From Saccoglossus kowalevskii (taxonomy: Eukaryota; Hemichordata; Enteropneusta; Harrimaniidae): DNA of 40,264 nucleotides. The notes under the pieces are model-generated. The model worked only from the letters and a program-made list of their open reading frames with translations, ran no database searches and was not told where the DNA came from. The stretch is taken from NCBI RefSeq assembly GCF_000003605.2, contig NW_003133373.1, positions 43,805 through 84,068 of the forward strand, given 5' to 3'. Both the position numbers and the translations under genes were made by a program. Shown piece by piece: positions 2,010 through 39,707 of this stretch; the first letter of the stretch is position 1, and every line of letters starts with the position of its first letter.

Positions 2010-3073
2010 TGTTTTATAAATATGATAATTACCATAAGGACGAATTTGTAAAAATCTTTTGGGCCAGACTAAGATTTAAAAGAAAAAAAAGAACTATAAA
2101 ATGGCTATGACCAGGCGAGTCTAATCCCACCCATACAATTGTAAAGCATTTATTGCATAATACCATAATGCGGAGTACGTAGTATCCAATCAAACCGAAG
2201 AAAGGCGCTTGAATTACATATGCACTGAATAAAAGCTTGAAAACAATAAACATTGAGAGGGAAATATTTTTTTTACTCAAGGTTTCTGTCTCATTCTGCA
2301 CATGGCGACCACATGGTTTTGTAAACTCGCATCAGGTTTAACACTTTGAGGGTCTGAAAACTTTGATCAAATAATTTAGTAATCACACGTAATGTGTAAC
2401 AGGTTACGACAAGAAGCTTTCAGGAGTATTGAATTCACGCATTCACGAAAACCCGAAATCAGGTGGCATAGCACTCAGACACACAAAGAGTCTATTGAAT
2501 CTCAGACTCTTCTATTGGTTGTCTGAGACTGAATTCACAGTATGCTTCTTATGGCATGCGTTACCGCACCCTACTATGGTACACTGATCAACAACAATGC
2601 GCGCGTCCACTCACTGACGGGCAAACAAACAACCGATGATGAATATTGATAATGTACATGTTCATTTAGTACAAAAGGCCATCGGCCTAGACATACTGGA
2701 CATCAATGAGAAATACAGAAGTAAGCGCTATAGATCAGTTATGCAAGTTCAATAAGTCACGGCAATTGTAAATCAGCCACATGATCATCTCTTATTTTAA
2801 ACGCCTCTACTTCCCCGGATTTATCAGGTGACAAGAGTGCACAGAAATTATAATTAGATCGTTCGAGTAGAAAATGAAATTCATCATGATCTTCGACTTG
2901 AAGACATTTCGAATTGCTTAACATACGTTTTCTATTTGGTCCGCAAATGTTATTTCAACGAAAAGTTTTGATGTTAAGTTGTGAACCAAGTTTCTAAATT
3001 TAGAGAGATAGTCGACCGTACTTACATATGGTTCCAATGAAAGTTATTGTCTGAACAGGCATGTGTTCCAAGT
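2010..3073. other. Non-coding stretch with a compound hairpin
   Basis: No gene is recognised. A nested inverted repeat lies at 2474-2527: outer arms CTCAGACA/TGTCTGAG and inner arms AAGAGTCT/AGACTCTT, each perfect. A segment around 2300-2345 (GACCACATGGTTTTGTAAAC) has a diverged counterpart at 6596-6640, which extends the A/B segmental duplication. Confidence 0.4.
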
Positions 3074-3237
3074 TTAAAGCGGCAGGGCCGTAACCTGCGC
3101 ACGCGCGGGAATTGAGTCCCAACCGACGATAACAACACACGCTAAAACGCAAAGGCTCATGGGTAGACGCTTGTTTGTAAACAGTGACACACTATGACCA
3201 TTCGGCGCATGTGCAGGTGACGACTCCCCCGCTTTAA
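3074..3237. mobile_element. MITE family 1, copy a
   Basis: This is a 164-bp element with GC-rich terminal inverted repeats of roughly 30 bp. The left end reads TTAAAGCGGCAGGGCCGTAA and the right end, reverse-complemented, reads TTAAAGCGGGGGAGTCGTCA; both continue into a CCTGCGC/CCTGCAC-type segment. The ends contain TTAA, which could be the target duplication. The interior has no coding capacity. A second copy at 9919-10083 is similar over its whole length, and a third begins at 40196 in the opposite orientation. The element is inferred to be non-autonomous and moved in trans by a DNA transposase that is not in the window. Confidence 0.75.
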
Positions 3238-3956
3238 TTCTCCGCCCAGGGTTGGATAATGAATTATTGTGTTTATACGTGTGCCAAAAAACCGTTTCGA
3301 GACCAGCTTCGTTGAAATACGCGTGAAAAAGATAAGCCGTTGCCATGCCGATTTATTTTAGAACGTCCTAAAATGGCAAGTCTCGAACCGGCGCCCCGTA
3401 CTTACAGAAACGCTAGTAGCGCTTGTGAACAATAACGCCGCATTAAAAGCACGCCCTCAATGTCCGCCATTTTAAATTTGGAGTCTGGGTTCTTGAGAAC
3501 GCAAAATTGATGACGTCAACAAAAATTATATCTCAAAAGTAAATATTCATGGGATTTTGTTACTACTCTAAATATCGAAACATATTTTAGTATAAGATAA
3601 TAATAATAATAATCAGTGAACATTCGTTATTTTATCTTCGAGTGCGAACGACTAGTTCTCGTCAACCCAAAATCTGTTAAATACGATATACAAATATTTA
3701 CAATCAATCCCAGTCAAAAAAACAAACACATGTGTCTAAGTGTCCGAGTCTGACTAATTTCCTAAAGTACAATAGGGCTTTTGATAAGAGTTCCTTAGGG
3801 CCCCTCAGCCACGACTATAATCTTTCTTGCCAGATTCTCTCTCCCATTTTAATTGTAAATGCATATGGTTATCAGGAGGCACATATGCAATTACATTTGA
3901 GAGGAAGCTGGAGTGTTGGAGCTGGGTTCTTTTATATATATGAAACAGGAAACACA
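3238..3956. repeat. Dispersed repeat, inverted relative of the 34.5-kb repeat
   Basis: The reverse complement of about 3500-3600 (containing TTATACTAAAATAT, then AATATTTACTTTTGAGAT) resembles 34475-34575 on the + strand. A short (TAA)n run lies at about 3598-3613. No exon is recognised in this interval. The segment around 3390-3400 reads like a tRNA B-box on the minus strand but has no matching A-box. Confidence 0.45.
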
Positions 3957-4494
3957 ATGTTAAGAAGAATAACAGGTGGGGTTCGAACTCAGAGTTCACA
4001 TAACCAAGGTTGCTCAGTGGAACTATCTGGAACACTAAGTCGGTCATTGTCCTTTTTCGCATTAAGAATTTCGTTCATAATTGTTGACATGACTTACTGA
4101 ATGCCGTCAAAATGTGAGCAGCGGGTTTAAAGTCAAATAAAGACCCCTCCAGGAACTCTTCTGTATTTAATGTCTGAGGCCGTAGGAAAGGGTCCTAATG
4201 CCTCAATTTTATTTTGGACGTCTTATCCCAATGAGACGAGTTTCGTCCTATAAATAGTACGTGCGGCGATATGTCATAGGTTCCTTTATTCGAGTTCTCT
4301 GAACTTGGTCAGTGGCCAATGTTACTGTAACACGAGACGTTGAATTGTTCGAGGTACGAACATCGAGTTCCATAAATGACCACGCCCATATTTTAAAAAC
4401 CACGCCCACCTTTGAGAAACCATGCCCAAATTGTAACACAGGATAGGTAATGTTAGGCCATTGGGTCACAGAGTATAGGTATCATGTATCAAGT
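3957..4494 (+). repeat. Segmental-duplication copy matching 19025-19440
   Basis: This stretch aligns well by eye with the region upstream of gene 2. Shared landmarks in the same order are GGTTGCTCA, ACTATCTGGAAC, TTCATAATTGTTGA, AATGTGAGCAG and TTTAAAGTCAAATAAAG. It shows that the duplication producing genes 1 and 2 extends at least 1.1 kb upstream of the leader exon. No reading frame is conserved between the two copies, so it is non-coding. Confidence 0.7.
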
Positions 4495-5092
4495 TATAAT
4501 GCTATGCAAATTGGTTAGGCAGGACAAAGTTATTTCTCTGTTTGGTATGTGTCACGTGATCAGCTTTTACACATTGTCTTGCGATATATCACCATGACGA
4601 ATTACGTCATCGTCTGTTGGAATGTAATGGAATGTATTGTAATGCGATGCGATGTACTTAATGTAATACACACACGTCTAGAACATGGGATTATGATTAC
4701 CGACCTTGACAGCGATTGCTACTAGTTTAGAAATTCAATTGTTTACGAACATATTTAGTCCATAAAAAAGAACTGAAAAAGCCGGATAAGAAAATTGCCA
4801 AGAATTACGTCATCCATACAGTTCTGTGAATACGGTCGTAATTTGTTACATCTGTGTATTAATTATTTGCAACCATTCTGTCTGACTTATTGATTATATG
4901 GAGCAATGCCATTGCATATAGTAACCATGAATTAACTTCGTATGGCCTTTATGTAACCCTATCTTTCCGCGACCCTTTTAATAAAATAACTTGTGGCCAA
5001 ATCTGGGAGAGGCGAGGAAGGAGAAGTACACAGAGTGATCGGCTGCCGTTGACACCTAATCATACTCACGGTGCCCACATTTAGTATATTAG
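4495..5092 (+). promoter_or_regulatory. Promoter block B and 5' leader exon of DOMON gene 1
   Basis: This block is conserved with 19432-19963. It carries CACGTG (4553-4558, inside the palindrome TCACGTGA) and CRE-like TTACGTCA sites (from 4602 and from 4805). It also has the conserved AACATGGGAT..ATGATTAC..GACCTTG segment, and a leader exon containing CATACTCACGGTGCCCAC that ends TTAG|gtgagt after base 5092. The exon start cannot be fixed without transcript data. It is predicted to splice to the acceptor at 7589-7590, 30 bases upstream of the gene 1 ATG. The E-box and CRE labels are sequence matches; binding is inferred. Confidence 0.6.
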
Positions 5093-5156
5093 GTGAGTGC
5101 CGTATTTGGGTGTTATGCTATTAATCTTGAATCATTTCGGGAATGCCGAAGACATT

Positions 5157-5275
5157 GTGACCGTGGCATAGTAAGAATTCAACGTCAACGCCTTCCCCGA
5201 GTTCGTTGCGATCAGCACATTTAATACTGTTTACACGAGATACTTGTATTTCCTCATCGACACTCCAGTTCAAAA
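5157..5275 (+). repeat. Conserved intronic block after the leader exon
   Basis: The motif GACCGTGGCATAGTAAG, followed by CAACGCC, CGAGTTC and later CGACACTCC, recurs at 1740-1860, 20027-20150 and, in altered form, 36597-36745. The frames differ and stops interrupt it, so it does not behave as a coding exon. It may hold regulatory sites or simply mark the shared duplication. Confidence 0.5.
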
Positions 5276-7590: not shown

Positions 7591-7874
7591 GTAACAGCCA
7601 ATATTTCCAAATTGTCACTATGATGTCACTGATGTTAATCTGCGCCTTGTTGCCGGTGGTAGCCATGGCAGCGGTTTCTAACGCGGGATGTGGTTCAACC
7701 AAGGCATGTTTCAAATCACCAGAAGGATGTACGTTGTACACGGATTGTACATTTTTCCTATCATACGTTGATAACGCTGAAATGTCTGCAGTAGATTTTG
7801 AGATGTTGGCTGATAGGTCTGGTACCGATGGCAGTGGATGGGCTGGCGTGGGATTCTCGACTGACAAATCCATG
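7591..7874 (+). CDS. Gene 1 exon: 29-nt leader plus coding 7620-7874
   Basis: The acceptor TTTTACCATCTCAG ends at 7590 and the coding part starts at 7620. The exon ends ATG|gtaaat in phase 0 after residue 85. It holds the signal peptide, four cysteines and the first DOMON strands up to GVGFSTDKSM. The acceptor is immediately followed by GTAA, a layout kept in all three genes. Confidence 0.85.
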
Positions 7875-10800
7875 GTAAATATCAATTGCTACAATCATCG
7901 TTTGAACTGTCTAACAACCTTCTAGTGTTATTTTCAAGTTTGTTATATATATATTAAGTTGTTAAGTACATACATATACATATACTTAACAACTATATAC
8001 TATATATACTTGTTTTGTTCACATTTCAATTTGTTGTCGGATCTCCATGACAACAATAATTAATGTCTTATCGTTATAAGTGTACTAGTGTCCAACTTTA
8101 TATGTTACACATTTCAGTAACGCTGTTGCACTAAATATTCATGTATTGAATCATTTAGCAAGAAAGTTATCAAATATATCTGTATTCCCCCTCAAAAATA
8201 TCAAAGTCAACGTCAATATATTAGGTCATAATTCAGCAAAGTAATTCTGATGGTTTTTTTACAGGGTTTTACGAATTACGTATTTGCATTACATACTAAA
8301 AATGACGGACAATTTTACCGGTGGTAACAGAGTCAATTTTAGCAAATACGATATATAACTTATGGCATGGGCTGACAACCGTAATTCACACAAACGAAAA
8401 CATTCAACACTATAACGAAGTAACTCAATTGACGTTTTGATTATCTACACAGGTTGTCATAGATTAATCTTTTTAAAGGGCCGTGGTCGTCGCACCACGT
8501 CCTTTCCACATGAGACTCACAGCAACGTATATAACGCGTGTAAAATACATTGTTTGTTTACTAAATGTCGACACTCGCTGCGCGATGACCACCGCTTTTT
8601 AATACTCTGAACAACCTCCATCACTCGTGAGTTGTACCATACGATATTAAACATCGTTTTACTGATGACGTTGAACACGTCACTGTAACAGATAAGATAA
8701 TTATGATGACACTGATAAGTGATAATGTGGCAACAAAACTACATAAATCATGTGTTGGCCTATGGACTATGTTGTATGGCGTTAAGACCGTGTTCGGGTT
8801 CAATGATGCCGGTGGTTATACATGTTGTACGTGCTATTGCTTTTTTTAGATCCCCTTCACCCAGAGTGAACATTGTTTCGGACTAATAGTATAAATATCA
8901 CAAAGTTGTCACGGTATCATATGATGGTCAATGTCCCACATTCCCTGGGCGTTCATTTGGTTCATGGTTACGACATACGTTGTCGTACTGACAAACATAC
9001 TGATTTTTTGTTCTCACAGGGAAGCGACAGTGTTGTTATGTGTATGAAACCAGCTAGCGAAGAGGGCGCTGTTCAAACCGCCTTCACTACTGGTACTACT
9101 AATGCTCTGACTGGCACTGTGAGTATTCTGGTATTCACTCGAATATTTCCACAGCAACTGGAATATGTAAATTTGAATTACTCTAATACTGCTTTATTGC
9201 TTCATATTTCAGGATGGTCTTAGTAACGGCGTAGTAACAGTTACTAACAACATTTTGGAGTGTAGCTTCACACGTAACTACTCCATTAACGGCAATGCCA
9301 ACTTCTATGACATAGAAAGTACATCGTATTACTTTTTAATTGGAACAGGTCCAATTACGTCAGGTAAAATCAAATTATCTTGTGCATTCTAGTTTCCATT
9401 ATTGTGTTGAGGATGTAGTAGAATTCATCATAGTAGAGGCAGGACAACAACTTCCATATTGTATTGTGTAATAGCGTGTTGACTACTGTAAAAGTGTCAA
9501 GCAGGGAAAATATGGTTCTGCGCAATTCGAGTCATCCTCCGCACAATATATTAAATTCAGACATGTTCACAGTTTTTGTGTCTCGATTAGTTATTGATGA
9601 ATTTAATCAGTTGGAGTCATCAAACTATCCGGACTCAATTTCTGTGACGTGTATAAAGACCGTGTTGCCATAACGCAACCATCTGAAAAAGGGGAATTGT
9701 GACTGAATTCTGCTCCAGGAATAATGATTAAAATCATTTTGTTCGATCGTATCACTCATAAAGTTAGACATTCGACGTCTCACTCTGTCTGCAGCAACAT
9801 ATTTATGTTGTATATCCAGGCAAATAGGTTTAAATTCCGACGGCAAAGCCTTATATGCATTTAGTGAATTACATACATTACATTAATATCACAACGAAAT
9901 TGTCTTTTGTTTTGTTTGTTGAAAGCGGCAGGGTCGTCACCTGCGCACGCGCGGGAGTTGAGTCCAAGCGATATTAACAACACACGCTAAAAACGCAAAG
10001 GCTCACGCAAAGGCATTTGTTTGTAAACGATGACACGCTATGGTCATCTGACGCATGCGCAGATGACGACTCCCCCACTTTAATAATTAGTATGGTATTT
10101 TTCAGCAACTTAGGAAAGGGTATTGGCATCTAACATTAATTGTTTTGCTGAAATATTTTCTGTAATATTAGGGGAAGTTCCCTATTTTCTAAATATATTA
10201 TTCCATAGCGATTTTATATATTAATCACATTGCACAAAAATGTGTAAAACTGTTTCTTCGGCATTGTTACAAAACGTGCGTAGACTTGCGGTTACACGAG
10301 AAGGTCTCATACGGAAAAGCATAAAATTATTGTACAAAATATTATGATAATTAGTTCCCATTGGAATTCCTGAAGTTTTAATTCTATTGTAACTGTAAAT
10401 GGGAGTAAATACTTTCTTTCCACTCTTTGTCCCCACCATCAAATAAAGATTGCTAATATGTTTCGCCTCTCGGGGATTAATAACACCTAAAAGAGCAAAC
10501 TTATTCTCAATAAACATACCAATTGGTAGTTCTGGTCAAACACAATATGATTTACATGACTTCCATTTTGCGGGCAGAAAAGAAAGTAATTCTCAATAGA
10601 GAAAATGTGTTTTGTTAGCCCTGTGAGATGATAAGACACCCATGCTTTTGGATACCCAGCAGCATCATACAAGTCAGTAATATAAATAACCCCTTTGGAA
10701 ATGAAGTCAAGGTACCATACACTCCTGTCATTTATGAGTAGTTTAGACTCTTATACAAAATTGATAGTTACTTCTGAAGATAATGCTACCTCCAAGGGGT

Positions 10801-12158
10801 TTAAGATATAAAAAGAGAAGTTTTGTCCAAAGATCGGTGATAGGTGGGTCTAGGAAACTTTGAATCCACTTGGCCCTAAAGCACGACACTGAACGAAAAT
10901 ATCTAATAAATTAATGCTCTCAGCAATATCACCAATCATAGTGTTTCTTCCACCTTGTCTGGCCCATTCCAAATAAATTTGTTAATAAATCTGTTTATGG
11001 TTTTAATATCAATATTTTAACAACCATAAGATTAAACAAATAAAGACATTCTGGAATTAGCAGTAATTTAATTATTTGTGTTTTACCTATAAATGAATAT
11101 TTTCAGAGCAAAGCTGCAAGCATTACTTCAGCGAATCGAATCATCCTTCAATATTTGATTCATATGCTTGATCTTTCTTGTAACAAAAATACATTACAAT
11201 AATTTTGATTGGTGATATTGGCCAGAGGATACTATAGGGATTATCCGTACGAGATTTCAACACCAAATCCACATGGATTGTATACAATGTAAACACATTA
11301 TCACACAACATTTATTATTTTCAAGATGATTGAAATAAAAATAGATTTAAAAAAAAAACTGCCTCTATCGCTATAAATGGCCCTTTTTCTTGGCGGCGCT
11401 ACGGTGATCTGTGACGTCATTCGTATTTACGTCTCTACTTTTCTGAACCGCTGTGAATACAAAATACTATGATAAGGTGATGTGCAGTTGGTTGCTATAG
11501 TGATTCAAGAACAAGTTCACAGAATGACAAAACATTAACAATTTCAAATAGTGTTTCGCCATGTGCTATTGTTGACAACGTAGACACAGTTCATACACGT
11601 TGTACATTAGTGATGAAAGTCTACGCATATGAAAAATAAAACGCACTAAAAATATTATGTCTGAGCAATTTAAAAAAAAAAAACATATCGTTTGAGTTGT
11701 CATTGTGTTACATCTTGACAATTAATTATTAACGATAGTTTGTTCAACTCTATTTCTAGGTACTCCAACAGAACATGAGGATTACCCATGTGCCAGTGAT
11801 ATGAAACTGGACATCACCAGTAAAGATGACATCATGTGCAGTGACGCTCATCATAGCTCAGAGGAGAGCAACAATGTCGCTATCATGTCACCAGGTACGC
11901 TACATTATATTTTGTTATATTTCTCATTCGCTTTTATCGTTGAGGGCGACCTAGTTTATCATAACCTTATCAATATCGTGATATCATTGCGTACGCTTGA
12001 TTCGCGATTAGACGAGTGGTTTTTCCCGCTGCCACACGTCAAAATTTTCCTGAATACAAGGATTGAATAAGTTTTTCTACTGAACGTATTTTCTTTCTAT
12101 TTCAGCTGCACACCTGATAATTTTTATGTGTGGACTGGTGATGGCTCTGTTTTACTGA
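7620..12158 (+). CDS. DOMON gene 1, FRRS1L-like membrane-anchored DOMON protein
   Basis: Complete gene. Joined exons 7620-7874, 9020-9118, 9213-9363, 11760-11894 and 12106-12158 give 230 aa, with GT-AG introns of phase 0, 0, 1 and 1. Residues 1-18 form a signal peptide (hydrophobic LMLICALLPVV, AMA cleavage motif). Residues 24-168 form one DOMON domain: paired cysteines C24, C30, C37 and C43, the GWAGVGFSTDKSM strand, DSVVMC, and LECSFTR. This is the pattern of FRRS1/FRRS1L-type domains. A linker with C179 and C195 follows, then a 17-residue hydrophobic tail (AAHLIIFMCGLVMALFY) ending the protein, as in GPI-anchored or tail-anchored proteins. There is no cytochrome b561 region. FRRS1L proteins are known AMPA-receptor biogenesis partners in vertebrates; the role here is unknown. 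N140-Y-S is a glycosylation sequon. The start was chosen by the signal peptide, the tandem ATG ATG and conservation in all three copies. Confidence 0.88.
7957..7994. repeat. Short inverted repeat just after gene 1 exon 1
   Basis: Perfect 12-bp arms AGTTGTTAAGTA (7957-7968) and TACTTAACAACT (7983-7994) enclose a 14-nt AT-rich loop. It lies in intron 1 and is not seen in genes 2 and 3. Confidence 0.5.
8473..8602. mobile_element. MITE family 2, copy a (intron 1 of gene 1)
   Basis: 130 bp with terminal inverted repeats TTAAAGGGCCGTGGTCGTCG on the left and, reverse-complemented, TTAAAAAGCGGTGGTCATCG on the right. There is no coding capacity. The sequence just before it (CAACCGTAATTCACACAA at about 8378) matches 22605-22622 in gene 2 intron 1, where a similar left end (TTAAAGGACGTTCGTCGTCG) sits at 22659. 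The insertion may therefore predate the duplication. Confidence 0.65.
9020..9118 (+). CDS. Gene 1 coding exon 2
   Basis: 33 codons, phase 0 at both ends, beginning GSDSVVMC after TTCTCACAG and ending LTGT before gtgagt. Residues 111-114 (TTNA) form the patch that differs completely from gene 3 (HSIS). Confidence 0.88.
9213..9363 (+). CDS. Gene 1 coding exon 3
   Basis: This 151-nt exon starts DGLSNGVVTV and ends GTGPITS plus one base, before gtaaaa. It completes the DOMON domain (LECSFTR with C135; SYYFLIGTGP as the last strand). It follows a 94-bp intron nearly identical to that of gene 3. Confidence 0.88.
9919..10083. mobile_element. MITE family 1, copy b (intron 3 of gene 1)
   Basis: 165 bp, full length and similar to the element at 3074-3237 from end to end. 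The left end reads GAAAGCGGCAGGGTCGTCAC and the right end, reverse-complemented, reads TTAAAGTGGGGGAGTCGTCA. It lies inside intron 3, so it does not disturb the coding sequence. Confidence 0.78.
10190..11000 (-). mobile_element. Degraded LINE ORF2 C-terminal fragment (intron 3 of gene 1)
   Basis: On the minus strand, broken frames give in order: WIQSFLDPPITDLW (about 10870-10830), then LINDRSVWYLDF and GVIYITDLYDAAG (about 10725-10660), then after frameshifts RTFCNNAEETVLHIFVQCD (about 10280-10221). The last is the Cys/His knuckle (C..C, ET..H.F..C) found at the end of many LINE reverse-transcriptase proteins. The clade (L1/Tx1-like or CR1-like) is not certain. Stops and frameshifts make it a relic. 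Confidence 0.65.
11760..11894 (+). CDS. Gene 1 coding exon 4
   Basis: The acceptor TATTTCTAG ends at 11759 and the exon is in phase 1 at both ends. It encodes the acidic Ser-rich linker (TPTEHEDYPC through NNVAIMSP) with two cysteines. The homologous exon of gene 2 is 15 nt shorter. Confidence 0.85.
12106..12158 (+). CDS. Gene 1 terminal exon (hydrophobic tail)
   Basis: The exon follows TATTTCAG and encodes AAHLIIFMCGLVMALFY and TGA (12156-12158). Gene 2 has the same exon with two changes. The protein ends inside the hydrophobic segment with no cytoplasmic residues. Confidence 0.85.
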
Positions 12159-12259: not shown

Positions 12260-12590
12260 TCAGTAGGTGACTACTAATGTGTCAGTCACATAGCCCGTAA
12301 ATACAGTTTACGATATAATAGTACCAGTTTAGAATATTTGTATTTGGTGGATGCAGGTCGATATAAACAAGTAATTGATGTACACTCCCACTGGGAATAA
12401 TGGGATTTATGTAAAACTCGACAGATTAAAATTCTAATTCTGAAAAACAATGTGTGACCTCACCGTGTCTGAACATGGATGCTACTATGTATGAATTGTA
12501 ATTGATCACGTGACATATACAGTAGGTATATATGTTATAGTTCCATTTCGAAGGTCATTTCTGCAGATTGTTTTAAACGTTGACACAAAT
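12260..12590 (+). repeat. 3' flank of gene 1 duplicated at 27480-27815
   Basis: The stretch beginning ATCAGTAGGTGACTAC aligns with the 3' flank of gene 2. Shared landmarks include AAACAAGTAATTGAT and CGTGTCTGAACATGGATGCT. It shows that the duplicated unit runs past the 3' ends of the genes. It is non-coding. Confidence 0.7.
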
Positions 12591-12742
12591 TTGAATACAC
12601 CTAATCAAATTTGAGTACACGCTGTCAGATATGGATACACACTATCCGTTATGAGTACACCCTGTCATATATGGATACAGCCTATCGGATTCGAATACAC
12701 CTTATTAAATATAGATACATATACTACGAGATTTGGGTACAC
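12590..12742 (+). repeat. 20-bp minisatellite downstream of gene 1
   Basis: About eight imperfect units alternate between a TTTGAGTACACCCTGTCAGA type and an ATATGGATACACCCTATC type, giving a rough 40-bp higher-order period. The same satellite, expanded, lies at the matching place downstream of gene 2 (27818-28110 and 28626-28785). Confidence 0.8.
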
Positions 12743-13810: not shown

Positions 13811-16800
13811 CATGGATTAAAACTTTGCAAAACGAAGTAATTAATTCACCACGTGTCTCGATTTCTGGTTGTACTTAAAGGTTGGTAAGATCATATAAGC
13901 GTACATACAATTAATTATTCTGCAACCTGGTGCTTGACTTTAAATTATTTTTAAGGTAATTTCATGACCCACCTCATTATACATTGAATTACGCCACCTT
14001 CAGTGATTATCTAGTTGGAAGATATGCCTTAATGTTTACTTGCAGTAACCAGACGTGCTTGCATAAAGCTGGATGCTTAATACTACATGCATAAAGTTGG
14101 ATGCATTATTCCATAAATGTCATATCAATAAACATTTCAATGACACACCCAGTTTTTTTATTTTAAAAAAGTGTATTTTTGTGTGTTAAAAAGGAAGTCA
14201 AGCCAAACATTTTTTTTCTTCAAATTTTCAGTGTGCATATCACTCGTGTGTATAATTATAGTCATGGAAATATCTAGAGAATGAAAAGTGATATGAAAAA
14301 GCTGTAAATTGCATGTTCTTACATTTGCAGAGCTAACTCGCCTGGGAGTATTATGCTGTTAGATTTTCTTTTAACAGTGCGCTTAATTTTCATCGAAACG
14401 TGTTTATGCTAAAACACTACTGTTTTGATATAAAAATCAGTTGTTATATTAAATAATATACATGTTTTTAATCACAATAAATTGCAATTAAAGTGGTGTT
14501 TTTTTTTATGAAATACATGAAAGTGCTTCCAAACTTTACAGTGAACGCCCTTACACCCTATGGGATATTTGTAAGCCCTGTCAGACTCAAGTGCAACTAT
14601 TGTCACGAGTTAAATACAGGTATAATAGCGAAAAAAGCCAAATTATAATAAAGCCATTTATGGATGAGTCGCCATGATTCAATGTCGTCGGCGAACACGA
14701 CTACAGTCATTTCAGTTACAAAACTATATAATTTAACAGTGTGAATGACAGAACATTTATACAGTCTTGTGATTGGTTGTTGATACATTCTGAATAGGCC
14801 ACGCCTCCAACTGTGCCGTGCTTTCCGGGCAANNNNNNNNNNNNNNNNNNNNNNNNNNNNNNNNNNNNNNNNNNNNNNNNNNCGTTAATTATTCATAAAT
14901 GGAGTCAATTTGTGTAGTTTTCTTGACTTATTCTGCAGATATCGGTGAAATATAGGTATGGCTTTGGCGAAATTTAAAAGAGCAACCAATATTCTTCAAG
15001 CTAGTATGTTTTAGATTTTATTTTTCATTCTGTTTGACTGATTTTTCGAGTTTAAAATTATGAGCTCACTGGTGCCTTCATCCCTTGTCTATTTCTTACA
15101 CTAGAAACCAGCCGACCCTCCCCCGCTCATAGGGACTGCGTACAGTTGATTATAGTTCCTGGGCTTCCTGTGGTTTAATATGAGAAAAGACGTTCATTTT
15201 TATATCGCATTAACAAACACCATACATCCGTCTACCTATACATCCAATCTACGTTCGTGCATTTATTGGTTCGTTTTAGGCTATTGTGTCTGTTGACAGG
15301 CTGTCTTGGTGTTAGCATATAATTATAGGTGTTTTTCATTTTGCTAGGGTTAGCTGGTTTAATATGGTTAAGCAGATTATTTGTCTGCTTTCATTACCAT
15401 TTTTACATTCGCGGTGAGTTGATTTCGTAGTGAGTAGCTTTAGCAGTGAGTAGGGCTTTGTCACAGTGACTGGTCATCAGACTTTCGAATTAGTTTTATG
15501 TGCCATTAACAACTAGTATTAATCTGGGAATAACCAACGTTAGAAGCTGTTATTTTGTTCTTATGATTCGTGCAGTTGCTCTGTCAGGAATTCCCAAAGA
15601 AGACCCATGCTCTGATATTGTTTTCTAGTTTCTTACATCGACCAAGATACATTTGACCATTTATAGAATAAATTATAGTATAAAACACATGTATAACTAT
15701 TCTTTAGTATTGAAATAAAATATATAAATCAGGGATAATGTCAGTGTTATTTACTAATAGGGATTGTCAACTTGTCCATGGGGCTGCAGGAGTTAAAAAA
15801 AATAGTGTATTCACTGTCATTTATTTTGCAGTTTCGTGTTCTTGTACACCATAGCTTCCATAGTATCTTTTTTCATTTTACAAAAAAACTTGATCTCCCA
15901 AAAAAGAGTCTTACAGGCCGATTTTCACCTATATTGATATTGTAAATTTAGCCAAGCGGTTATTTATTAGAGGCGCCCGTGGAACCAAAAATTTAGACGT
16001 GAATGACTCCAGCGACGTAAAATCGGGTGAGGGGCTATTTAACTCAGGGATATCTACGGTAATTGGGTTGTATAAAACTCATGATAAAACCTCGTTTGTA
16101 ATTGTTTTACTTGTCTATAATTCTGATGGATTTTTTGTAAAAACACACCGCTACGCAAGTTGTACGAAATATCAAATATTTTAATACATAACAATAATGC
16201 GAATACAAAAACTAGCAATTACAGAACTACAAAATCAAGAACAATTTGGGCAGGGGCCCTCTGACTACCTGGGGCCAAGGTCAAGGTTGCTGACCTTGAG
16301 TGGCAAGTTTTGGTTAAACAAGAATGCCGAGAATGGAGGATGGCCACTTCAGAATTATGACGGTATTCTTGAATGGGGCGCAGGAGGAAATCCTTGGCCC
16401 TTAGCCTTGACCCAAGTCATAACGAAAAGATCCAAGGAGGAAGAAAGGGGACGGTGGAGGGTTAGCTAGCGATGTGCACTGAGGCGAAACAGAAACCTGA
16501 ATGAAAAGCTGAAACAAAGAAAGTTGACAACAAAGCTAGGTGACGCTAAGAGACATATGGAACTTGACACTTACCTTGGTGCTAATTAGATGAGAATAAA
16601 AGCAGTTAAATGGTAAAAATTACCGACCAGTGATTGGCTGGAGTTGATACTTCAGCGATCCGGATTAAGCCTCAAGCTCAGTGCTTTTACAAAATGGGTC
16701 TGTGACACAACAGACCCCACGATTTTTGATGGACATCAACAGGTTATCTAACACTTTCTTCATGTTAACAAAGAATGTGGCCAAGTACTCATTCACTTTA

Positions 16801-18934: not shown

Positions 18935-19320
18935 CAGATGAAAGGACCAGTTACTGCTACACAGCCCTATTCACTGCGAAAACTACCCACTATGAAATCC
19001 ACTCACCAAGAAGATACTACTATAGATAACTGACGGGGTTCTAACTCATAGTTTACATAATCAGGGTTGCTCAACGGACTATCTGGAACGCAATGTCGTT
19101 TATTGTCCTTTCTCGCGCGAATGTCCTTCATAATTGTTGATATGAATTACTGAATGTCGAGAAGAATGTGAGCAGTGGGGTTTAAAGTCAAATAAAGCCC
19201 CCTTACTCAACCTTTTCTGTATTCAAAGTCCGAAGCCATAGGAAGGAGCCAACTGCCCCCCGCATTTTATCTCGGATTTTATCTCATATTCCAAAGAGCC
19301 TTCACACGAGAGTCTCGTCT
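18935..19320 (+). repeat. Upstream duplicated segment, gene 2 copy
   Basis: Positions 18935-19025 (GAAAGGACCAGTTACTG, AGCCCTA, GCGAAA, CCCAC) match 35641-35740 upstream of gene 3. Positions 19025-19320 match 3957-4250 upstream of gene 1. The two matches together link all three gene units as segmental duplicates. Confidence 0.65.
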
Positions 19321-19431
19321 TATACATATCATGTACGGTTGTATGTCACCCGTTCTTCTATTCGAATTCATTGGACATGATATATTTAATAGGTCGAAAT
19401 GGTCAATGGTACTGTAGCGTAGGATAAGTAA

Positions 19432-19963
19432 TGTCAGGTCGTTGTCATTGAGTCAGAATGCTATACAATTTGGTTAGGCGAGACAATGTTACCTTTAATT
19501 ATCTGTTTGTCATTTGTCACGTGGCCAGATATTACACATTGTCTACGAATCAATGCATTACGTCATTACGAATTACGTCATTATTTGTAATGTACTATTT
19601 TGTATTGTAATGTAATATGATGGAATGTATTGTAATATGATGTATTAAATTTAATACATACATGTCCAGAACATGGGATAATGATTACTGACCTTGGCAA
19701 CGAGTGTTACTATTGTAGCAATAGTTCGGTAAGGGTGTACTACGTTATCCATATAATTCTGTGTTATTTATTTGCCACCTTTGTGTCTGACCTATTGACC
19801 AAATGGAACAATGCCATTTCATAGTAACAATGAATGAACTGCGTATGGCTTTCACGTGACCATATCTGCCTACGACCCCTTTGAGATCATTTGTGACCAA
19901 ATTTGCGAGAGGCGTGTAAGAAGCAGCACACATTGTACACGGTGCTTACATGTAGTATATAAG
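19432..19963 (+). promoter_or_regulatory. Promoter block C and 5' leader exon of DOMON gene 2
   Basis: This is the best-preserved match to block B. It has CACGTG at 19518-19523, two TTACGTCA sites (19558-19565 and 19573-19580), the CAGAACATGGGATAATGATT segment and GACCAAATTTGCGAGAGGCG. The leader exon ends TATATAAG|gtgagt after 19963. It is predicted to splice to the acceptor at 21513-21514. The transcription start is not determinable here. Confidence 0.6.
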
Positions 19964-20026
19964 GTGAGTGGAGAAATGACATATTTGGATGTTATGCTAT
20001 GAATCCATCCGGGAATGCCAGGGACA

Positions 20027-20150
20027 TTGTGACCGTGGCATAGTAAGAATTCAATGTCAACGCCATCACCGAATTCGTGGTGATCAGCACATTCAATACT
20101 GTTTACACGAGAGGGTTAATCGTAACACTTGTATTTTCTAATCGACACTC
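20027..20150 (+). repeat. Conserved intronic block after the leader exon, gene 2
   Basis: Close to 5157-5275 (GACCGTGGCATAGTAAG, CAACGCCATCACCGA, GATCAGCACATT.AATACTG, CGACACTCC). It contains stops in every frame in at least one copy and is not an exon. Confidence 0.5.
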
Positions 20151-21514
20151 CACATGGACAAGAACTGTCGCACTGTGACGTCATACGGTAACATTTTTGC
20201 CAACCAGCAGACGAATGTCTGATAAGAAACGTCGCTCACTTATCAGCAATATACTTGACGATCTGCTGTGACAACGATGATCGCAAGTTGTTTAATAAAC
20301 AGACACGCGTAGTGCTACATATATATTTTGTTAACATCATCAGCGAACAACGTAGCTATTTTAATTACGGTTGCGAACGACTGGTTCTCGCCAACCAGTC
20401 ACTGTATACGCGCACGCACGCACCAAACGTTAAGAAGTACGATGGCACAGCGTGGGTTATTACGTGAATGTTTGTTTGCATGTAAAAATTTTCTCGGCTC
20501 ATTGTCTCTACTGTAGACAGTATTGTCCCGAGGACAATCATAAGCTGAGTTGTTGGTACTCAATCATGAATACACGGCTGTCCATGCATACAGATACATT
20601 ACTATACAGGCTGTTTGATATTCAGAATGTGTATTTCCGTCTGTAGTCCATGTGGGAACGTACTCAATACAGTCCATTTTGTGATGAAAATTTTGGATCA
20701 GTATGTATGGTTCAGTGGCACCGTCTAGGTTCGGTCGTGTTACTGGAACATCTGTCACTGTGATTGAGCAGAGATAATTACTGATTCCCCGCCGTCGTCG
20801 ACCGTCATCGTTCTTCTTCGTTCTCGCAAACTGGAACTCCGTTTGATTGATTTGATATTTGGTATATGTGTACCCTGGGTGAACCTCTCTTAGATTTATG
20901 TGTTCATTTCTTTCATGGTCCAGTTGGTGTTGTTATATTTTTGCTTAGACAATCTAGGGGGTATTTCAAGACCGCGCATGCGCAAATCAAGTGTCGTCTG
21001 GTAATATACGTCGTTATACACAAGGTCAGTACAATTCGATGAATTTTTATACGCTAAATGATCTCAACTTGTACAGACATGCAGACAGAAATGTGAAATG
21101 CAAAACAAGCAGCGGTTTATTTTTCGAGTGAGTGGGAAAATACTGTAAATTCACGTTTTTATCCAAATAAATGATAGTCTTTTTAACCCATGGAAGGCCT
21201 CATCCCGTATCTAATTGGCAGTCAAACGAGAAGAAAAAAAAAGGGTGAATTCGGAAACGGTAAAGTTTCTGCATGCGTGGAGTGCAAACACGATGTTCAC
21301 AAGGCACACGTTATCAACCCAGCATTAGGACTGTAAGCCACTTACGTAGTAAATATATCCAATATTTATAAACACTATGCTTATAATACGGCACAATATA
21401 CACCCAAACTGATAGCAATAATACAATAACTAGTGCTTCTACGTACTTCCCACAGTTTTCACGAGAAGCTGTCGATTGTACTGATTCATCTACATCTCAT
21501 GGTTATCATTTCAG
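20151..21514. other. Non-coding part of gene 2 leader intron
   Basis: No exon or transposon is recognised. The short open frames at 20255-20650 share no sequence with the other units and have no family resemblance. Confidence 0.4.
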
Positions 21515-21798
21515 GTAACAGTCACAATTCCCGAATTGTCACCATGATGTCACTGATATTAATCAGCGCCATGTTGCCAGTGGTTGCCATGACAGCGGTT
21601 TCTGATGCGGGATGTAGTGTTAACAAAGCATGTTACAAAAACCCAGAAAACTGTATGCTTGGCTTGGATTGTAAAATGTTCCTATCATACGCCTATAATC
21701 CTGACATGTCTACAGTCGATTTTGAAATGTTGGCTGATAGGTCTGGTGACGCGGGGGCTGGTTGGGTCGCTGTGGGATTCTCGACTGACAAATTTATG
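21515..21798 (+). CDS. Gene 2 exon: leader plus coding 21544-21798
   Basis: The acceptor GGTTATCATTTCAG ends at 21514, followed by GTAACAG and the ATG at 21544. The exon ends ATG|gtaagt in phase 0. Compared with gene 1, the cysteines and GFSTDK core are unchanged while the loops differ (for example ENCMLGLDCKMF for EGCTLYTDCTFF). Confidence 0.85.
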
Positions 21799-24700: not shown

Positions 24701-27246
24701 ATGTAGCAGATATGAGGAGAGCATCGATCATATTGTATCTGACTGCCTTGAATTAGCAAAGACAAAATATATTCGAAAACAAAACAGCACAATTGCATGC
24801 GTGCACTGGAAGATCTGCATACATTATAAGATATAGATTGCAGACAAGTGGTATGAACACCAACCAGATACAGTAAATGAGAGTGAGGAAGTAACAATCC
24901 TATGGGATATGCAAATACAAACAGATAAAGAAATAAGTGCCAAAAGGCCTGACATAGTTATAGATATCTAGAGCAGTGCCAGTAGTGATCGGGGCGCTAG
25001 GGCTCATAAAAAAGGGCCTGGAAATATACATCAGCAAAGTTCCGGGAGATATTAACATCTTGGAACTTAAACAGATAAAGAAATATGTGCCAACAGACCA
25101 GACATAGTTATCAAGGACAAGAAACATAAAATGTGCATCCTCATTGACATGACAGTACCATCGGACAGAAACACATCCGTGAAACTGGTTGAAAAGTTGT
25201 CTAAGTACAAAGACTTAGAAATTTAAATCAACAAAATTTGGGGAATGATATCTAGAGCAGTGCCCGTAGTGATCGGGGCACTAGGGCTCATAAAGAAGGG
25301 CCTGGAAATATACACCAGCAATGTTCCGGGAAATATTAACATTTTGGAACTCAAAAAGATCTGCATCCTTGGAACTATCAAAATAACATTTTCCCTTTAA
25401 CGCCAAAGGTCCATGGAATGGCCCCGGCTCTACAGGATGTTACACAAGCACTATAAAGGAAATATAATAATAATAATTTTTAAACTTTATAACTTATTCC
25501 ACACCGCCCCTAACACACAAAATGTTTTTGTTTTTCGTTCTTACAGGGAAGCGACAGTGTTGTGATGTGTTCAAACTCAGATACCGGAATTNNNNNNNNN
25601 NNNNNNNNNNNNNNNNNNNNNNNNNNNNNNNNNNNNNNNNNNNNNNNNNNNNNNNNNNNNNNNNNNNNNNNNNNNNNNNNNNNNNNNNNNNNNNNNNNNN
25701 NNNNNNNNNNNNNNNNNNNNNNNNNNNNNNNNNNNNNNNNNNNNNNNNNNNNNNNNNNNNNNNNNNNNNNNNNNNNNNNNNNNNNNNNNNNNNNNNNNNN
25801 NNNNNNNNNNNNNNNNNNNNNNNNNNNNNNNNNNNNNNNNNNNNNNNNNNNNNNNNNNNNNNNNNNNNNNNNNNNNNNNNNNNNNNNNNNNNNNNNNNNN
25901 NNNNNNNNNNNNNNNNNNNNNNNNNNNNNNNNNNNNNNNNNNNNNNNNNNNTTGTTTGAATTCCTATTGTTAACTATAATCAACAATTTACGCAAATTTT
26001 TAACATATCTTCTTGTAGTATCAAGTAGCGATGCCACCCATATTCTTGCAAGTAAGTACAATTATTGTATCGAACATTTAAAAAAAAGGACATAACTCTT
26101 AATATAATATAGAAATCTTTTCAAGCATGGAGCAATGTTATTGCTGCCGCTTATCACTGTATCGGATACTATAGTACGAATCATTTTTGTGTGTAAAGGA
26201 GCAATATTAGCGGAAGAATATTCAGAGGGGGAAACATTTGAGTCAAAAAGTCTATTAAATAACATAGTGAAATATAGAACGATAACAAATAAAACAGATT
26301 TAAAGATCAGCAACAACAAACTGAAATAACCACACCTATCATCTGGTTCGATCTTATTGCTGATTTAGTTAGACATTCAACGTTTTACTCTGTTCCAAAA
26401 TTGTTTCGAATCATTGACAGAAGTTGCAATTTTTTCAACAAATGTATGTTATTTATCCCGGCTTTAAATGTTGATAGCAAATCTATATATGCATTTAATG
26501 AATTTACAATATTATCGCAACGAAATTGATTTCATAATGAATTACTTTATACACTCATTATCAATGTTTACACAGAATGATGTAAATGAATGTATACGTT
26601 ATACAATAGAAAATCCCACCAACAAACTAACTGATTAGCATATCATGATTTATACTGATTATCAGATACATTACTCATATCCTCATTACATTGTTGTCTT
26701 GATATATTCTAAAACATTTACAGGTTGACAATTTTCAAATAGTTCAAATAGTGTTTCTCAATGTGCTATTGTTGACAACGTAGACACAAATCATACACGT
26801 TGTACATTAGTGTCTCGGGTTTCTTAAAAAGAACAGATCATTTCGAGTTGACATGGTGTCCCATATTGACAATTGTTTGCTCAACTGTATTTATAGTTCC
26901 ACAAAAACACGAGGAGCACCCATGCATCAGTACTGTCAAGCTGGATATCAACAATAAAAATGACATCATGTGCAGCTCAGATGAAGCTTTGAGCAACGTC
27001 ACTATCATGTCTCCAGGTACGCTACAATATATTGTGTACCATCCTTATTGGTGCTAGTGTATCGTCATCACTTTCATATCGTGGTATGAATGTGTACGGT
27101 TAATTCGCGATCGAAAGTGTGACCTTTCCCTGTTTCACCCAACCAAAGAATTGGATGAGTTTTTGTACTGAACTTATTTTCTTCTTTTTTCAGCTGCACA
27201 CCTGATAATTTCCATGTGTGGACTTCTGATGGCGCTGTTTTACTGA
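21544..27246 (+). CDS. DOMON gene 2, FRRS1L-like paralogue (interrupted by gap)
   Basis: Second tandem copy. Visible coding exons are 21544-21798, 25547-25591 (cut by N), 26897-27016 and 27194-27246; exon 3 is presumed to lie inside the gap 25592-25951. Exon 1 gives 85 residues (signal peptide, C24/C30/C37/C43 kept, GWVAVGFSTDKFM). Exon 2 starts GSDSVVMC but then reads SNSDTGI, unlike the MKPASEE of gene 1. Exon 4 (VPQKHEEHPC to NVTIMSP) is five codons shorter than in gene 1. The last exon encodes AAHLIISMCGLLMALFY. Intron 1 (21799-25546) has been swollen by tandem repeats and a LINE. All visible exons are open with correct splice sites, so the gene is probably functional, but exons 2-3 cannot be checked. 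A 33-nt candidate extra exon lies at 26019-26051. Confidence 0.78.
23000..23560 (+). repeat. AT-rich tandem repeat, about four units of 130-145 bp
   Basis: Units contain CTCAATATTGCATAGCACAT, CTTATATTGACAGATCAA, TTTGGTCTTATTTGGACTA, TTCACAAGATATTAAC and AAATATGCAAATGAGC. They recur near 23001, 23146, 23281 and 23411. It lies in intron 1 of gene 2 only. Confidence 0.8.
23561..23900 (+). repeat. Two-unit repeat leading into the LINE
   Basis: Two diverged units about 172 bp apart share CAATGT.CATCTGTA, GTGGTC, TTTGT..CAAGT, CAACAAAAT.G.TCCAG and CATCT.CGAGAAAT. The second continues GACGGACTGACGAAGGCGAAACTACAAGCCCCC and ends in a TAATAATAATAA run at 23890. Units of this type are common dispersed repeats in marine invertebrate genomes. 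Confidence 0.6.
23916..25440 (+). mobile_element. Decayed LINE reverse-transcriptase C-terminal region
   Basis: Three broken frames on the + strand carry, in order: EFDLEKCAKETFKRG..EGTYKYLGIN, stop, GDA (about 23950-24100); MKEKVRKEYYRRIR..ELNATNRFEAINTLAIPVVTYSFNIIN (about 24096-24246); and later KWYEHQPDTV, ILWDMQIQTDKE, RPDIVIKDKKHKMCILIDM, SDRNTSVKLVEKLSKYKDLE (about 24848-25226). These are the thumb and C-terminal blocks of a LINE family widespread in cnidarians and deuterostomes. Stops, frameshifts and an internal duplication (24919-25069 against 25070-25350) make it inactive. It sits in intron 1 of gene 2. Confidence 0.8.
25547..25591 (+). CDS. Gene 2 coding exon 2, truncated by assembly gap
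   Basis: The acceptor TTCGTTCTTACAG ends at 25546. Fifteen codons (GSDSVVMC then SNSDTGI) are readable before the N run. The first eight residues match gene 1 exactly; the rest diverges at once. Confidence 0.8.
25592..25951. other. Assembly gap (360 N)
   Basis: Unresolved bases. By the gene 1 spacing (exon 2 of 99 nt, intron of 94, exon 3 of 151), the missing end of exon 2 and all of exon 3 would span about 25592-25890, so they fit within this gap. Confidence 0.95.
26019..26051 (+). CDS. Candidate 33-nt microexon of gene 2
   Basis: Flanked by an acceptor (ATATCTTCTTGTAG) and a strong donor (CAA|gtaagt). Its length is divisible by three, and in phase 1 it reads VSSSDATHILA before joining exon 4 as IPQKHEEHPC. 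It therefore keeps the frame without a stop. No equivalent was recognised in gene 1 intron 3. Chance cannot be excluded at this size. Confidence 0.35.
26897..27016 (+). CDS. Gene 2 coding exon for the linker (gene 1 exon 4 equivalent)
   Basis: The acceptor CTGTATTTATAG ends at 26896 and the donor is CCAG|gtacgc, phase 1 at both ends. It keeps HE.HPC..., IMC and IMSP, and gains a sequon, N-V-T. The upstream intron sequence (ATGTGCTATTGTTGACAACG at 26761) matches 11561 in gene 1. Confidence 0.83.
27194..27246 (+). CDS. Gene 2 terminal exon (hydrophobic tail)
   Basis: The exon follows TTCTTTTTTCAG and encodes AAHLIISMCGLLMALFY with TGA at 27244-27246. It is nearly identical to the gene 1 tail. 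Confidence 0.83.
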
Positions 27247-27817: not shown

Positions 27818-28110
27818 TGGATCCACCCTATCATAGTTAGATACACCTATCACAATTTGATACACTTTATAAGGTTTCAGTAGACCCTGCCAGAAATGGA
27901 TACACTCTATCAGATTTGGATACACTCTATCAAATTTGAGTACATCCTGTCTGATATGGATACACCGTATAAGAATTAAGTACACCCTACGAGATATTAT
28001 GGTGGCCCATATATACAATTGGTACGCTACAAAAAAAATTGTCGATTACTTGAAAACACTCTATCTGATTTGAGTACACCCTATCAGATATGGATACACC
28101 CTATACAAAC
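27818..28110 (+). repeat. 20-bp minisatellite downstream of gene 2, first part
   Basis: About thirteen units are of the GGATACACCCTATCAGATTT and GAGTACACCCTGTCTGATAT types. It is interrupted around 27995-28055 by a non-repeat piece and split from 28626-28785 by a LINE insertion. Confidence 0.82.
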
Positions 28111-28111
28111 T

Positions 28112-28624
28112 ATGCCCCCAAGTGGGATCTTGAGTGCCTAACATAATCGTTGAGGTCCCTCTGCCAGGTGTTTTTTGGCCTTCCTCATTTCCGCTTTCCC
28201 TGTGGATTCCATGTCAAGGCTTGTCTGGTGATACTGGATGGTTGCTTACGCAAAGTTTGGCCAATCCAACCCCATCACTCCACAAGATCTCTTCCTCCAT
28301 GGAAAGCTGCCTGGTTTGCTTCCAGAGCTCAAAGTTACTGATGTTATCCGCCCAATGAATTTATAGGGTTATCCACAGGCATCTGTTTACAAAGGTCTGT
28401 AGATTGTGGGTTGTTGCTTTTGTGGTACGCCGGGTTTCTGCCCTATATAACAGAACAGACTTTACATTTGTATTCAACAAAAGAAACTTGGTGTGTCTTC
28501 CTATTGTTCTGGAGCTCCAAATGATCCTTAGTTGGAGGAATGCAGCTCTTGCTTTGCCAATCCTGGTTTTGACATCAGCATCCCGCCCTGTTTATCCACA
28601 GCACTGCTAAGGTAAGTGAAGAAC
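28112..28624 (-). mobile_element. LINE 3' fragment inserted in the minisatellite
   Basis: On the minus strand the frames read FFTYLSSAVDKQGG, TRIGKARAAFLQL, IIWSSRTIGRHTKFLL, NTNVKSVLLYRAET, TTHNLQTFVNRCLW, WIGQTLRKQPSSITRQALTW and NPQGKRK (stop) GRPKNTWQRDL. This is the end of the endonuclease/reverse-transcriptase protein of an RTE-like family abundant in marine invertebrates. There are only a few stops and frameshifts, so the insertion is younger than the other LINE pieces here. Satellite units lie on both sides. Confidence 0.82.
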
Positions 28625-28625
28625 T

Positions 28626-28785
28626 TGAGTACACCCTATCTGAATTGAATACACCCTTTCAGATTTGTATACACCCTATCAAATTTAGGTACACCCTTTC
28701 GTTACACTCTATCAGATTTGGATACATTTGAGTACACCCTGTTAGATATATGGATGCACCCTATAAGAATTGAGTACACCCAAGT
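28626..28785 (+). repeat. 20-bp minisatellite downstream of gene 2, second part
   Basis: About eight units of the same satellite resume directly after the LINE fragment. Confidence 0.8.
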
Positions 28786-35798: not shown

Positions 35799-35981
35799 AT
35801 CCATTCATTGATATGTTGATATATATATATATATATCTGGGCATTGGTTAATAATGATTGACACGGTTGTTACTGTGTCGGTATGGCATATTTATGCGAA
35901 AGACATTTTTATAAAGCAATCGGATAAAATAACCGTAATAACCCCGATGGAAAGTATTACGTTATTCACAAAGTTCCGTGA

Positions 35982-36302: not shown

Positions 36303-36419
36303 ATTCCAATTTATTCGCCAGCTTACCTGTCAGACTTTTTGACTGCCTGGCAAAAAGCCATAAATTACACAATTTACTTTGTACGGTCTCGTTTTACCTT
36401 GTGATTAAATCGCGGGGCG

Positions 36420-36500: not shown

Positions 36501-36504
36501 GTGA

Positions 36505-38562: not shown

Positions 38563-38846
38563 GTAAAAACCACTATTCACGATTTGTCACTATGATGTTA
38601 CTGATGTTGATCTGCGCCTTGTTGCCAGTGGTAGCCATGGCAGCGGTTTCTGACGAGGGCTGTGGTACAAACAAGGCATGTTTCAAATCACCAGAAGGAT
38701 GTACGTTGGGCACGGATTGTACATTTTTCCTATCATACGTTAATAACGCTGACATGTCTGCAGTAGATTTTGGGATTATGGCTGATAGATCTGGTACCAG
38801 TGGCAGTGGATGGGTCGCTGTGGGATTCTCGACTGACACATCTATG
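38563..38846 (+). CDS. Gene 3 exon: leader plus coding 38592-38846
   Basis: The acceptor TTTTATCATTTCAG ends at 38562, followed by GTAAAAACC and the ATG at 38592. The exon ends ATG|gtaaat in phase 0. Confidence 0.85.
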
Positions 38847-39707
38847 GTAAATATCAACTGCTACAATCGTTTTAACTGAGATATAACTTTCAAGTGTTAT
38901 TTTTCCAATTCTTTTTGAAATCAGACTTTAAAGGGCGGTGGTCTTCGCGCTGCGCATATGCGACATTTGTGTTGATGAACATTGATTTTCCCATAATCCA
39001 GTGCGCTCTTCTAATGGAAATCACAAGTACTAGTATATGAGGTTTGACCCGGGCGCGACGTGCACTAATTACCGCCGGTGACACCTTCGATACCTTCCAA
39101 TCACCTCAAAATACCTCATTAAAGCTTGGTAGCGTCCCAGTTTATACTCGTTGATTTCCGCAACAGACGAAGTCGCCATGTTTGTTTATATGGGACCCAT
39201 ATATATCGCGCATGCGTGGCGCGACGACCACTGCCCTTTACATGTAACTGCGATATAGCTCGGCGAACTGTGTTGATCTCCTTGTTTATCAGAACATGTG
39301 TGTAGACATAGTCAAGGCCCTTTCTCGTCATATCGAGTAACGTGCTAAATGTTATTCCAACAGGGAGACGACAGTGTTGTGATGTGTGTAAAACCAGCTA
39401 GTGGAGAGGGCGCTGTTCAAACCGCCTTCAATACTGGTCATTCCATTTCTCTGACTGGCACAGTGAGTATTCTGGTAATCACTCGAATATTTTCACAGCA
39501 ACTGGAATATGTAAATTTGAATTACTCTAATACTGCTTTATTGCTTCATATTTCAGGATGGCCTTAGTAACGGCGTAGTAACAGTTACTAACAACATTTT
39601 AGAGTGTAGCTTCACACGTGACTACTCCATTGACGGCAATGTCAACTTCTATGACATAGAAAGTACATCGTATTACTTTTTAATTGGAACAGGTCCAATG
39701 GCGTCAG
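38592..39707 (+). CDS. DOMON gene 3, FRRS1L-like paralogue (3' end outside window)
   Basis: Coding exons 38592-38846, 39364-39462 and 39557-39707 give the first 168 residues plus one base. All splice sites and phases equal those of gene 1. The linker and tail exons are expected beyond the window (2.4 kb further on in gene 1). The signal peptide, C24/C30/C37/C43, GWVAVGFSTDTSM, DDSVVMC, LECSFTR and SYYFLIGTGP are all present. The protein is closer to gene 1 than to gene 2, yet differs from gene 1 at 15 of 85 residues in exon 1 and 9 of 33 in exon 2. The gene 1 sequon N-Y-S is D-Y-S here. Intron 1 is only 517 bp and holds a MITE. The function is inferred only by family, as for gene 1. Confidence 0.85.
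38928..39240. mobile_element. MITE family 2, copy b (intron 1 of gene 3)
   Basis: 313 bp with ends TTAAAGGGCGGTGGTCTTCG on the left and, reverse-complemented, TAAAGGGCAGTGGTCGTCGC on the right, both continuing into a GCGCATGCG-type stretch. It is longer than copy a (130 bp) and shares mainly the ends. No coding capacity. Confidence 0.75.
39364..39462 (+). CDS. Gene 3 coding exon 2
   Basis: 33 codons, GDDSVVMC through SLTGT, phase 0 at both ends, donor gtgagt. It is the fastest-changing exon between genes 1 and 3. Confidence 0.87.
39557..39707 (+). CDS. Gene 3 coding exon 3
   Basis: 151 nt, DGLSNGVVTV through GTGPMAS plus one base, donor TCAG|gtaaaa. It differs from gene 1 exon 3 at 7 positions, 5 of which change the protein. 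Confidence 0.87.

Follow-up and report, generated by a model that had tools for sequence, protein, structure and literature searches.

A probable past gene-conversion tract across intron 2 and exon 3 of tandem DOMON genes in Saccoglossus kowalevskii

Between two tandem DOMON genes of the hemichordate Saccoglossus kowalevskii it is intron 2 that is unusually alike, not the exons that are unusually different. We consider that the most probable reason, with a chance of roughly two in three, is a past interlocus gene-conversion tract of ~260 bp between these paralogues, beginning late in exon 2 and ending with exon 3. An earlier note on the same DNA, made from the sequence alone, had read the pattern the other way round, as coding sequence diverging faster than the intron, and had proposed as causes either diversifying selection or gene conversion centred on intron 2 and exon 3 with fast change outside it.

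The window, i.e. the whole stretch of 40,264 nucleotides that was analysed, is draft sequence, eukaryotic as judged by its spliced genes, with two runs of N (14833-14882 and 25592-25951). It holds three tandem copies of one gene on the same strand, in which exon 1 starts at 7620, 21544 and 38592. Gene 1 has five coding exons, gene 2 is visible as exons 1, 4 and 5 together with the first 45 nt of exon 2, and gene 3 leaves the window past exon 3, any exons 4-5 lying beyond it. The features are listed below.

7620..7874, plus strand: gene 1 exon 1, an open frame with a GT donor; codes for a signal-peptide-like start (by eye) and for the beginning of DOMON, matched as PF03351 by the spliced product
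9020..9118, plus strand: gene 1 exon 2, with 15/99 differences from gene 3; holds the cluster of six differences
9105..9378, plus strand: putative gene-conversion tract, 12 differences in 274 bp against 17 in the preceding 97 bp; MaxChi p 0.007-0.03
9119..9212, plus strand: gene 1 intron 2, the low-divergence segment of 94 bp, with 2/94 differences and no indel against 39463-39556
9213..9363, plus strand: gene 1 exon 3, with 7 differences from gene 3
11760..11894, plus strand: gene 1 exon 4, carrying His174, a candidate for the second haem ligand; matches gene 2 and continues the frame between exons 3 and 5
12106..12158, plus strand: gene 1 exon 5, hydrophobic C-terminal tail and stop (splice reading)
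21544..21798, plus strand: gene 2 exon 1, 68% protein identity to gene 1 and 54/255 nt differences
25547..25591, plus strand: first 45 nt of gene 2 exon 2, then the assembly gap; placed by alignment with the beginning of exon 2 in the other two genes
25592..25951, no strand: assembly gap of 360 N, in which gene 2 presumably has the remainder of exon 2, then intron 2 and exon 3 (~299 nt expected)
26897..27016, plus strand: gene 2 exon 4 (splice reading)
27194..27246, plus strand: gene 2 exon 5 with stop (splice reading)
38592..38846, plus strand: gene 3 exon 1 (alignment to gene 1)
39364..39462, plus strand: gene 3 exon 2 (alignment to gene 1)
39463..39556, plus strand: gene 3 intron 2, with 2/94 differences from gene 1
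39557..39707, plus strand: gene 3 exon 3 (alignment to gene 1)

The counts from which the earlier note started were exact on recount, namely 46 differences in the 505 coding nucleotides of exons 1-3 and two, none of them an indel, in the 94 bp of intron 2, and its coordinates and splice sites were confirmed as well. Divided by exon, genes 1 and 3 differ at 24/255 positions in exon 1, 15/99 in exon 2 and 7/151 in exon 3 (the last count was run over 153 nt, the 151 and 2 extra, with no difference in the extra 2). Fisher's test of intron 2 gave p=0.021 against all exons, 0.021 against exon 1, 0.0016 against exon 2 and 0.49 against exon 3. The fourfold excess of exon over intron 2 divergence is therefore real, but it was chosen post hoc and is of modest significance, and it cannot be extended from intron 2 to a general rule of exons against non-coding DNA, as exon 1 has non-coding flanks that have diverged further than the exons, and intron 2 is the outlier. 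For the 5' flank of exon 1 a local alignment gave 21/115 differences and 14 gap columns, a three-way alignment by MAFFT 35/120 and 4; the two alignments disagree and the tests take the lower figure. At its start, intron 1 has 9/57 differences and 3 gap columns. Neither the end of intron 1 (8600-9019 against 39244-39363) nor the start of intron 3 (9365-9700 against 39709-40010) has detectable homology between the loci, their alignment scores being lower than the best of 100 shuffles.

Set against these flanks (30/172), intron 2 is clearly the less diverged (p=1e-4), also when only the gap-free flank columns (17/92) are taken (p=2e-4), and it lies below the synonymous divergence of the exons too (2/94 against 13.5/120.4, p 0.008-0.015). 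Silent sites of intron 2 and exon 3 taken together (4/130.5) are less diverged than those of exons 1 and 2 (11.5/83.9, p=0.011), and about five times less than the silent sites of exons 1 and 2 plus the flanks (~42/256, p=5e-5). Since the silent sites of exons 1 and 2 (14%) are close to the flanks (17%), the pattern is regional and not one of coding against non-coding sequence, and since they are far above intron 2, selection on the protein alone does not explain it. Replacement sites drop in the same direction, with 5/116.5 against 27.5/270 (p=0.07). Exon 3 on its own is not significantly lower at silent sites (2/36.5), nor does it differ there from intron 2 (p=0.32). All these p values belong to a post hoc comparison of two sequences from one genome, and it could be asked whether a short intron has simply drawn an ordinary low number of differences. 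A scan of the whole concatenated alignment and MaxChi on it reach only p=0.055, and the test of intron 2 against the exons stands before correction for the choice made, but the comparison with the non-coding flanks makes a chance draw very improbable.

The earlier note had asked for a gene-conversion test, and a breakpoint test, MaxChi, was run. Within the 371 bp that cover exon 2, intron 2 and exon 3 it places a break after 9104 (p=0.007); when the dense cluster of differences at 9094-9104 is left out the break moves to 9060 (p=0.013), and the strictest variant, which omits the cluster too, also breaks after 9060 (p=0.03). The drop in silent and intronic divergence over intron 2 and exon 3 and the break near 9104 agree with gene conversion centred there, which was one of the two causes proposed at first. 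The 5' edge of the tract is uncertain, at about 9060-9118, and the 3' edge falls where homology stops in intron 3 (~9363-9378); in gene 3 the tract corresponds to 39449 to about 39707-39722. What is directly observed is the low-divergence block, its 5' breakpoint and the loss of homology on its 3' side.

A block of this kind could also be produced by the assembly, if reads of two similar blocks were mixed or alternative haplotypes joined. The assembly is a draft, and one of its two N gaps lies over the matching block of gene 2. No exon 3 of gene 2 was found when it was searched for in the window, so we place the rest of its block in the 360-N gap, which covers the same exon 2-intron 2-exon 3 segment that is near-identical in genes 1 and 3, and which is possibly a repeat-induced assembly gap; a gap at this place might result from near-identity of the copies, and in that it also speaks for conversion. 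On the other side, the block retains 29 differences in 371 bp, 12 of them inside the proposed tract, and the stretches of introns 1 and 3 that were compared could not be matched from one locus to the other. A simple collapse, or a duplication of alleles, is thus unlikely, and we hold an artefact to be an explanation with hardly any claim.

Intron 2 could also have been kept alike by functional constraint, such as a splicing structure in which both splice-site regions are paired. The introns of both genes fold near-identically, with a hairpin at each end (z of -1.68 and -2.62), folds as good being found in 15/200 and 4/200 shuffles. These are just two near-identical sequences, in which covariation is not countable; the lower divergence runs on, in direction, into exon 3, from which intron 2 does not differ by the Fisher test above, and neither Rfam (gathering threshold) nor a tRNA search gave any match in the window. 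We regard such constraint as improbable, although less so than an artefact or chance.

Under the gene-conversion reading the tandem copies would first have diverged, after which one conversion event, or a few, would have copied ~260 bp between genes 1 and 3, with either locus as donor. The conversion would have ended within exon 2 on the 5' side and, on the 3' side, where intron 3 ceases to match. Intron 2 would have been taken along within the tract because it is short and free of indels, while introns 1 and 3 would have been spared because their homology had already been lost and they were no longer convertible. The coding regions would have evolved under weak overall constraint, with the haem-ligand motif and the cysteines retained and most of the mature domain near neutral. 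Fast change outside the converted block, which the earlier note had added to this explanation, is not needed, as the non-coding flanks beyond the tract exceed the exons in divergence.

Three-way comparison bears on the history of the copies. In exon 1, 40 sites unite genes 1 and 3, against 10 and 11 for the other two groupings; in the near flanks the counts are 24, 24 and 12, a weaker grouping (p=0.006). This hints at either an older exchange there or a younger duplication of genes 1 and 3. Intergenic patches near 4780-5110, 19700-20010 and 35930-36540 unite genes 1 and 2 instead (54 sites against 32 and 15), but the gene 3 patch overlaps a LINE-like ORF with a 2A-like motif and may be a transposon copy, so it was given no weight, and neither were the lower p values obtained with it included. 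The ORF in question (35982-36329, minus strand) contains GDIESNPGP and has no Pfam match; we take this motif to resemble the 2A-like peptide of some non-LTR retrotransposons. Upstream intergenic DNA is homologous between genes 1 and 2 (3969-5267 and 19026-20152, 71-73% in three pieces), which indicates that the duplicated unit was larger than the gene.

Repeats and other transposon-like sequences are spread through the window. Short repeat units 3' of genes 1 and 2 (12586-12719 and 27911-28781) match each other several times, and those downstream of gene 2 read like GATACACCCTATCA. Three dispersed related repeats (3072-3238, 9918-10084 and 40179-40249) are 83-87% identical, the last one inverted; two of the three hold CGCATGCGC-type sequence, and they are perhaps MITEs. 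A minus-strand ORF of 237 aa (31026-31739) has no Pfam match and presumably, by its look, belongs to a DIRS-type reverse transcriptase/RNase H region. Another minus-strand ORF (28361-28591) matches DUF6451 (PF20049, E=1e-14), and weak zf-RVT matches below the cutoff (E about 0.04) at 10221-10535, minus strand, and 24522-24836, plus strand, are perhaps LINE remnants.

Turning to the coding sequence, the earlier note had estimated that about 36 of the 46 differences change the protein; the NG86 method lowers this to ~32.5 replacement and ~13.5 silent changes, a ratio of 2.4 against a site ratio of 3.2 (386.6:120.4), and the proteins differ at 28/168 residues. For exons 1-3 NG86 gives dS 0.121, dN 0.089 and dN/dS 0.73 (bootstrap 0.39-1.6). 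The codon-model estimate that had been proposed as a check comes to an omega of 0.91 for genes 1 and 3 by pairwise codon ML, with omega=1 not rejected (LRT p=0.79), and to 1.02 without codons 1-17; the overall ratio is close to 1, as the earlier note had it, and not significantly above it. In none of the five codon ML comparisons was omega=1 rejected, although tests of this kind, made on whole genes in pairs, can hardly detect selection that acts at a few sites. On these grounds positive selection was rejected as the leading explanation. The contrary outcome that the earlier note had named, dN/dS well below 1 with intron divergence equal to the synonymous, did not appear either, dN/dS being only slightly below 1 and intron divergence the lower of the two. 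Between genes 1 and 2 dN/dS over exons 1, 4 and 5 is 0.53 (0.31-0.89), which suggests purifying selection overall in that pair, and for their exon 1 alone ML does not reject omega=1 (p=0.42). Unusually fast coding evolution is not demonstrated for the gene 1/gene 3 pair, and diversifying selection, with a dN/dS of 0.73-0.91 that is indistinguishable from 1, is neither demonstrated nor excluded.

The differences are not evenly spread. Six of those in exon 2 fall within 11 bp (9094-9104, p=0.029) and turn four adjacent residues from TTNA into HSIS; this cluster could stem from a mutation of several nucleotides at once, from a short conversion with another copy as donor, or from selection on a loop. 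In exon 1 dN/dS is 0.13 for codons 1-17, a value resting on just 3 changes, and 0.99 for the remainder, which suggests that the mature sequence is weakly constrained. These observations could be joined in another explanation, in which conversion homogenises the exon 2-3 block (and earlier did so in exon 1) and selection preserves the differences in exons 1 and 2, leaving islands of coding divergence above a converted intron. The peak of divergence in exon 2 stands right next to an intron with 2%, the cluster alters neighbouring residues, and the contrast between the mature part of exon 1 and its first codons goes in the same direction. There is also a precedent in exon 5 of the human red/green opsin genes (PMC3924837), likewise an island of coding divergence beside a low-divergence intron in duplicated genes, which by that account is kept by selection despite conversion. 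The opsin peak is explained by two functionally important residues, whereas the present one is known from sequence alone and its dN/dS does not exceed 1; the overall dN/dS values of both gene pairs speak against selection, and the cluster would equally follow from a mutation of several nucleotides or from a short conversion whose donor is a copy not seen here. We therefore look on selection of this kind as unlikely, yet as the least unlikely of the alternatives to conversion alone.

Products of genes 1 and 3, which were taken into the Pfam scan, carry a DOMON domain (PF03351; 45.4 and 51.6 bits, respectively, with a cutoff of 32.7) at residues 42-160, and in both it is preceded by a start that to the eye resembles a signal peptide. 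Across the join of exons 1 and 2 all three genes have the motif SXDXXMGXD, as STDKSMGSD in gene 1, STDKFMGSD in gene 2 and STDTSMGDD in gene 3. The motif has been published for the DOMON domains of SDR2/CG8399, where Met is the likely haem ligand (PMC10691727). A His in exon 4 (residue 174) follows this Met after 89 residues in gene 1 and has a counterpart at the aligned place in gene 2; it is a candidate ligand by spacing only. The corresponding distance in CG8399 is 93 residues (PMC10691727). The 28 amino-acid differences that separate genes 1 and 3 leave every cysteine and every fixed motif residue in place; two of them, K83T and S87D, are on free positions of the motif.

With the CYBDOM proteins (SDR2/CG8399) the three genes have DOMON and SXDXXMGXD in common, but CYBDOM has a cytochrome b561 domain (PMC10691727), whereas the gene 1 model has none after DOMON and closes with a hydrophobic tail. 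In this model of 230 residues, with its stop in exon 5, DOMON is the sole family above the cutoff. The C-terminal hydrophobic tails of genes 1 and 2, SPAAHLIIFMCGLVMALFY and SPAAHLIISMCGLLMALFY, seem by eye to have small residues ahead of a hydrophobic stretch and no cytoplasmic part after it, as GPI-anchored proteins do. A single haem-binding DOMON with a C-terminal GPI-type signal is the make-up of AIR12, a plant protein, which these genes may resemble in this. The gene products are probably secreted single-domain haem-DOMON proteins, perhaps GPI-anchored. A PDB sequence search returned a single match, at chance level (E=0.31), and among 14 pattern matches of the gene 3 product in viral contigs there was no relative.

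It would be more speculative still than the selection explanation above to picture these genes as a tandem family of surface proteins of the haem-DOMON type, with conversion still going on and making introns and framework exons alike, and with selection maintaining differences in a variable exon 2 loop (TTNA against HSIS) and in mature exon 1, i.e. a small recognition-type repertoire built round an invariant haem site, and we find this doubtful. If the selection reading were true, a domain of redox type, DOMON, would serve as a diversifying surface protein. A DOMON domain is not known to us to have been described in that role, and a literature search joining the DOMON domain with gene conversion returned one paper, which by title and abstract is unrelated.

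The mechanism of the preferred explanation, gene conversion, is ordinary and the pattern is of a kind already known. PMC3924818 quotes mean conversion tracts of, for the most part, 200-300 bp from experiments in yeast and of 287-296 bp from hamster cells; its own ML estimate of tract length is lower, on the order of 10^1-10^2 bp. In the GOT1Sd/GOT1Sr genes of Tigriopus californicus (PMC3728101) interlocus conversions are, as proposed here, largely in exons, and a long intron is largely unalignable between the copies. It is this agreement, of published tracts of 200-300 bp and of exon-limited conversion beside an unalignable intron, that makes the mechanism an ordinary one. In contrast to our one genome, conversion there is supported by GENECONV over several populations, in several of which one copy decays; unlike there, a short intron lies inside the proposed tract here (PMC3728101).

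From these results we can conclude that lower divergence in an intron than in the neighbouring exons does not on its own indicate adaptive change, and that in tandem copies a short intron can simply sit inside a conversion tract.
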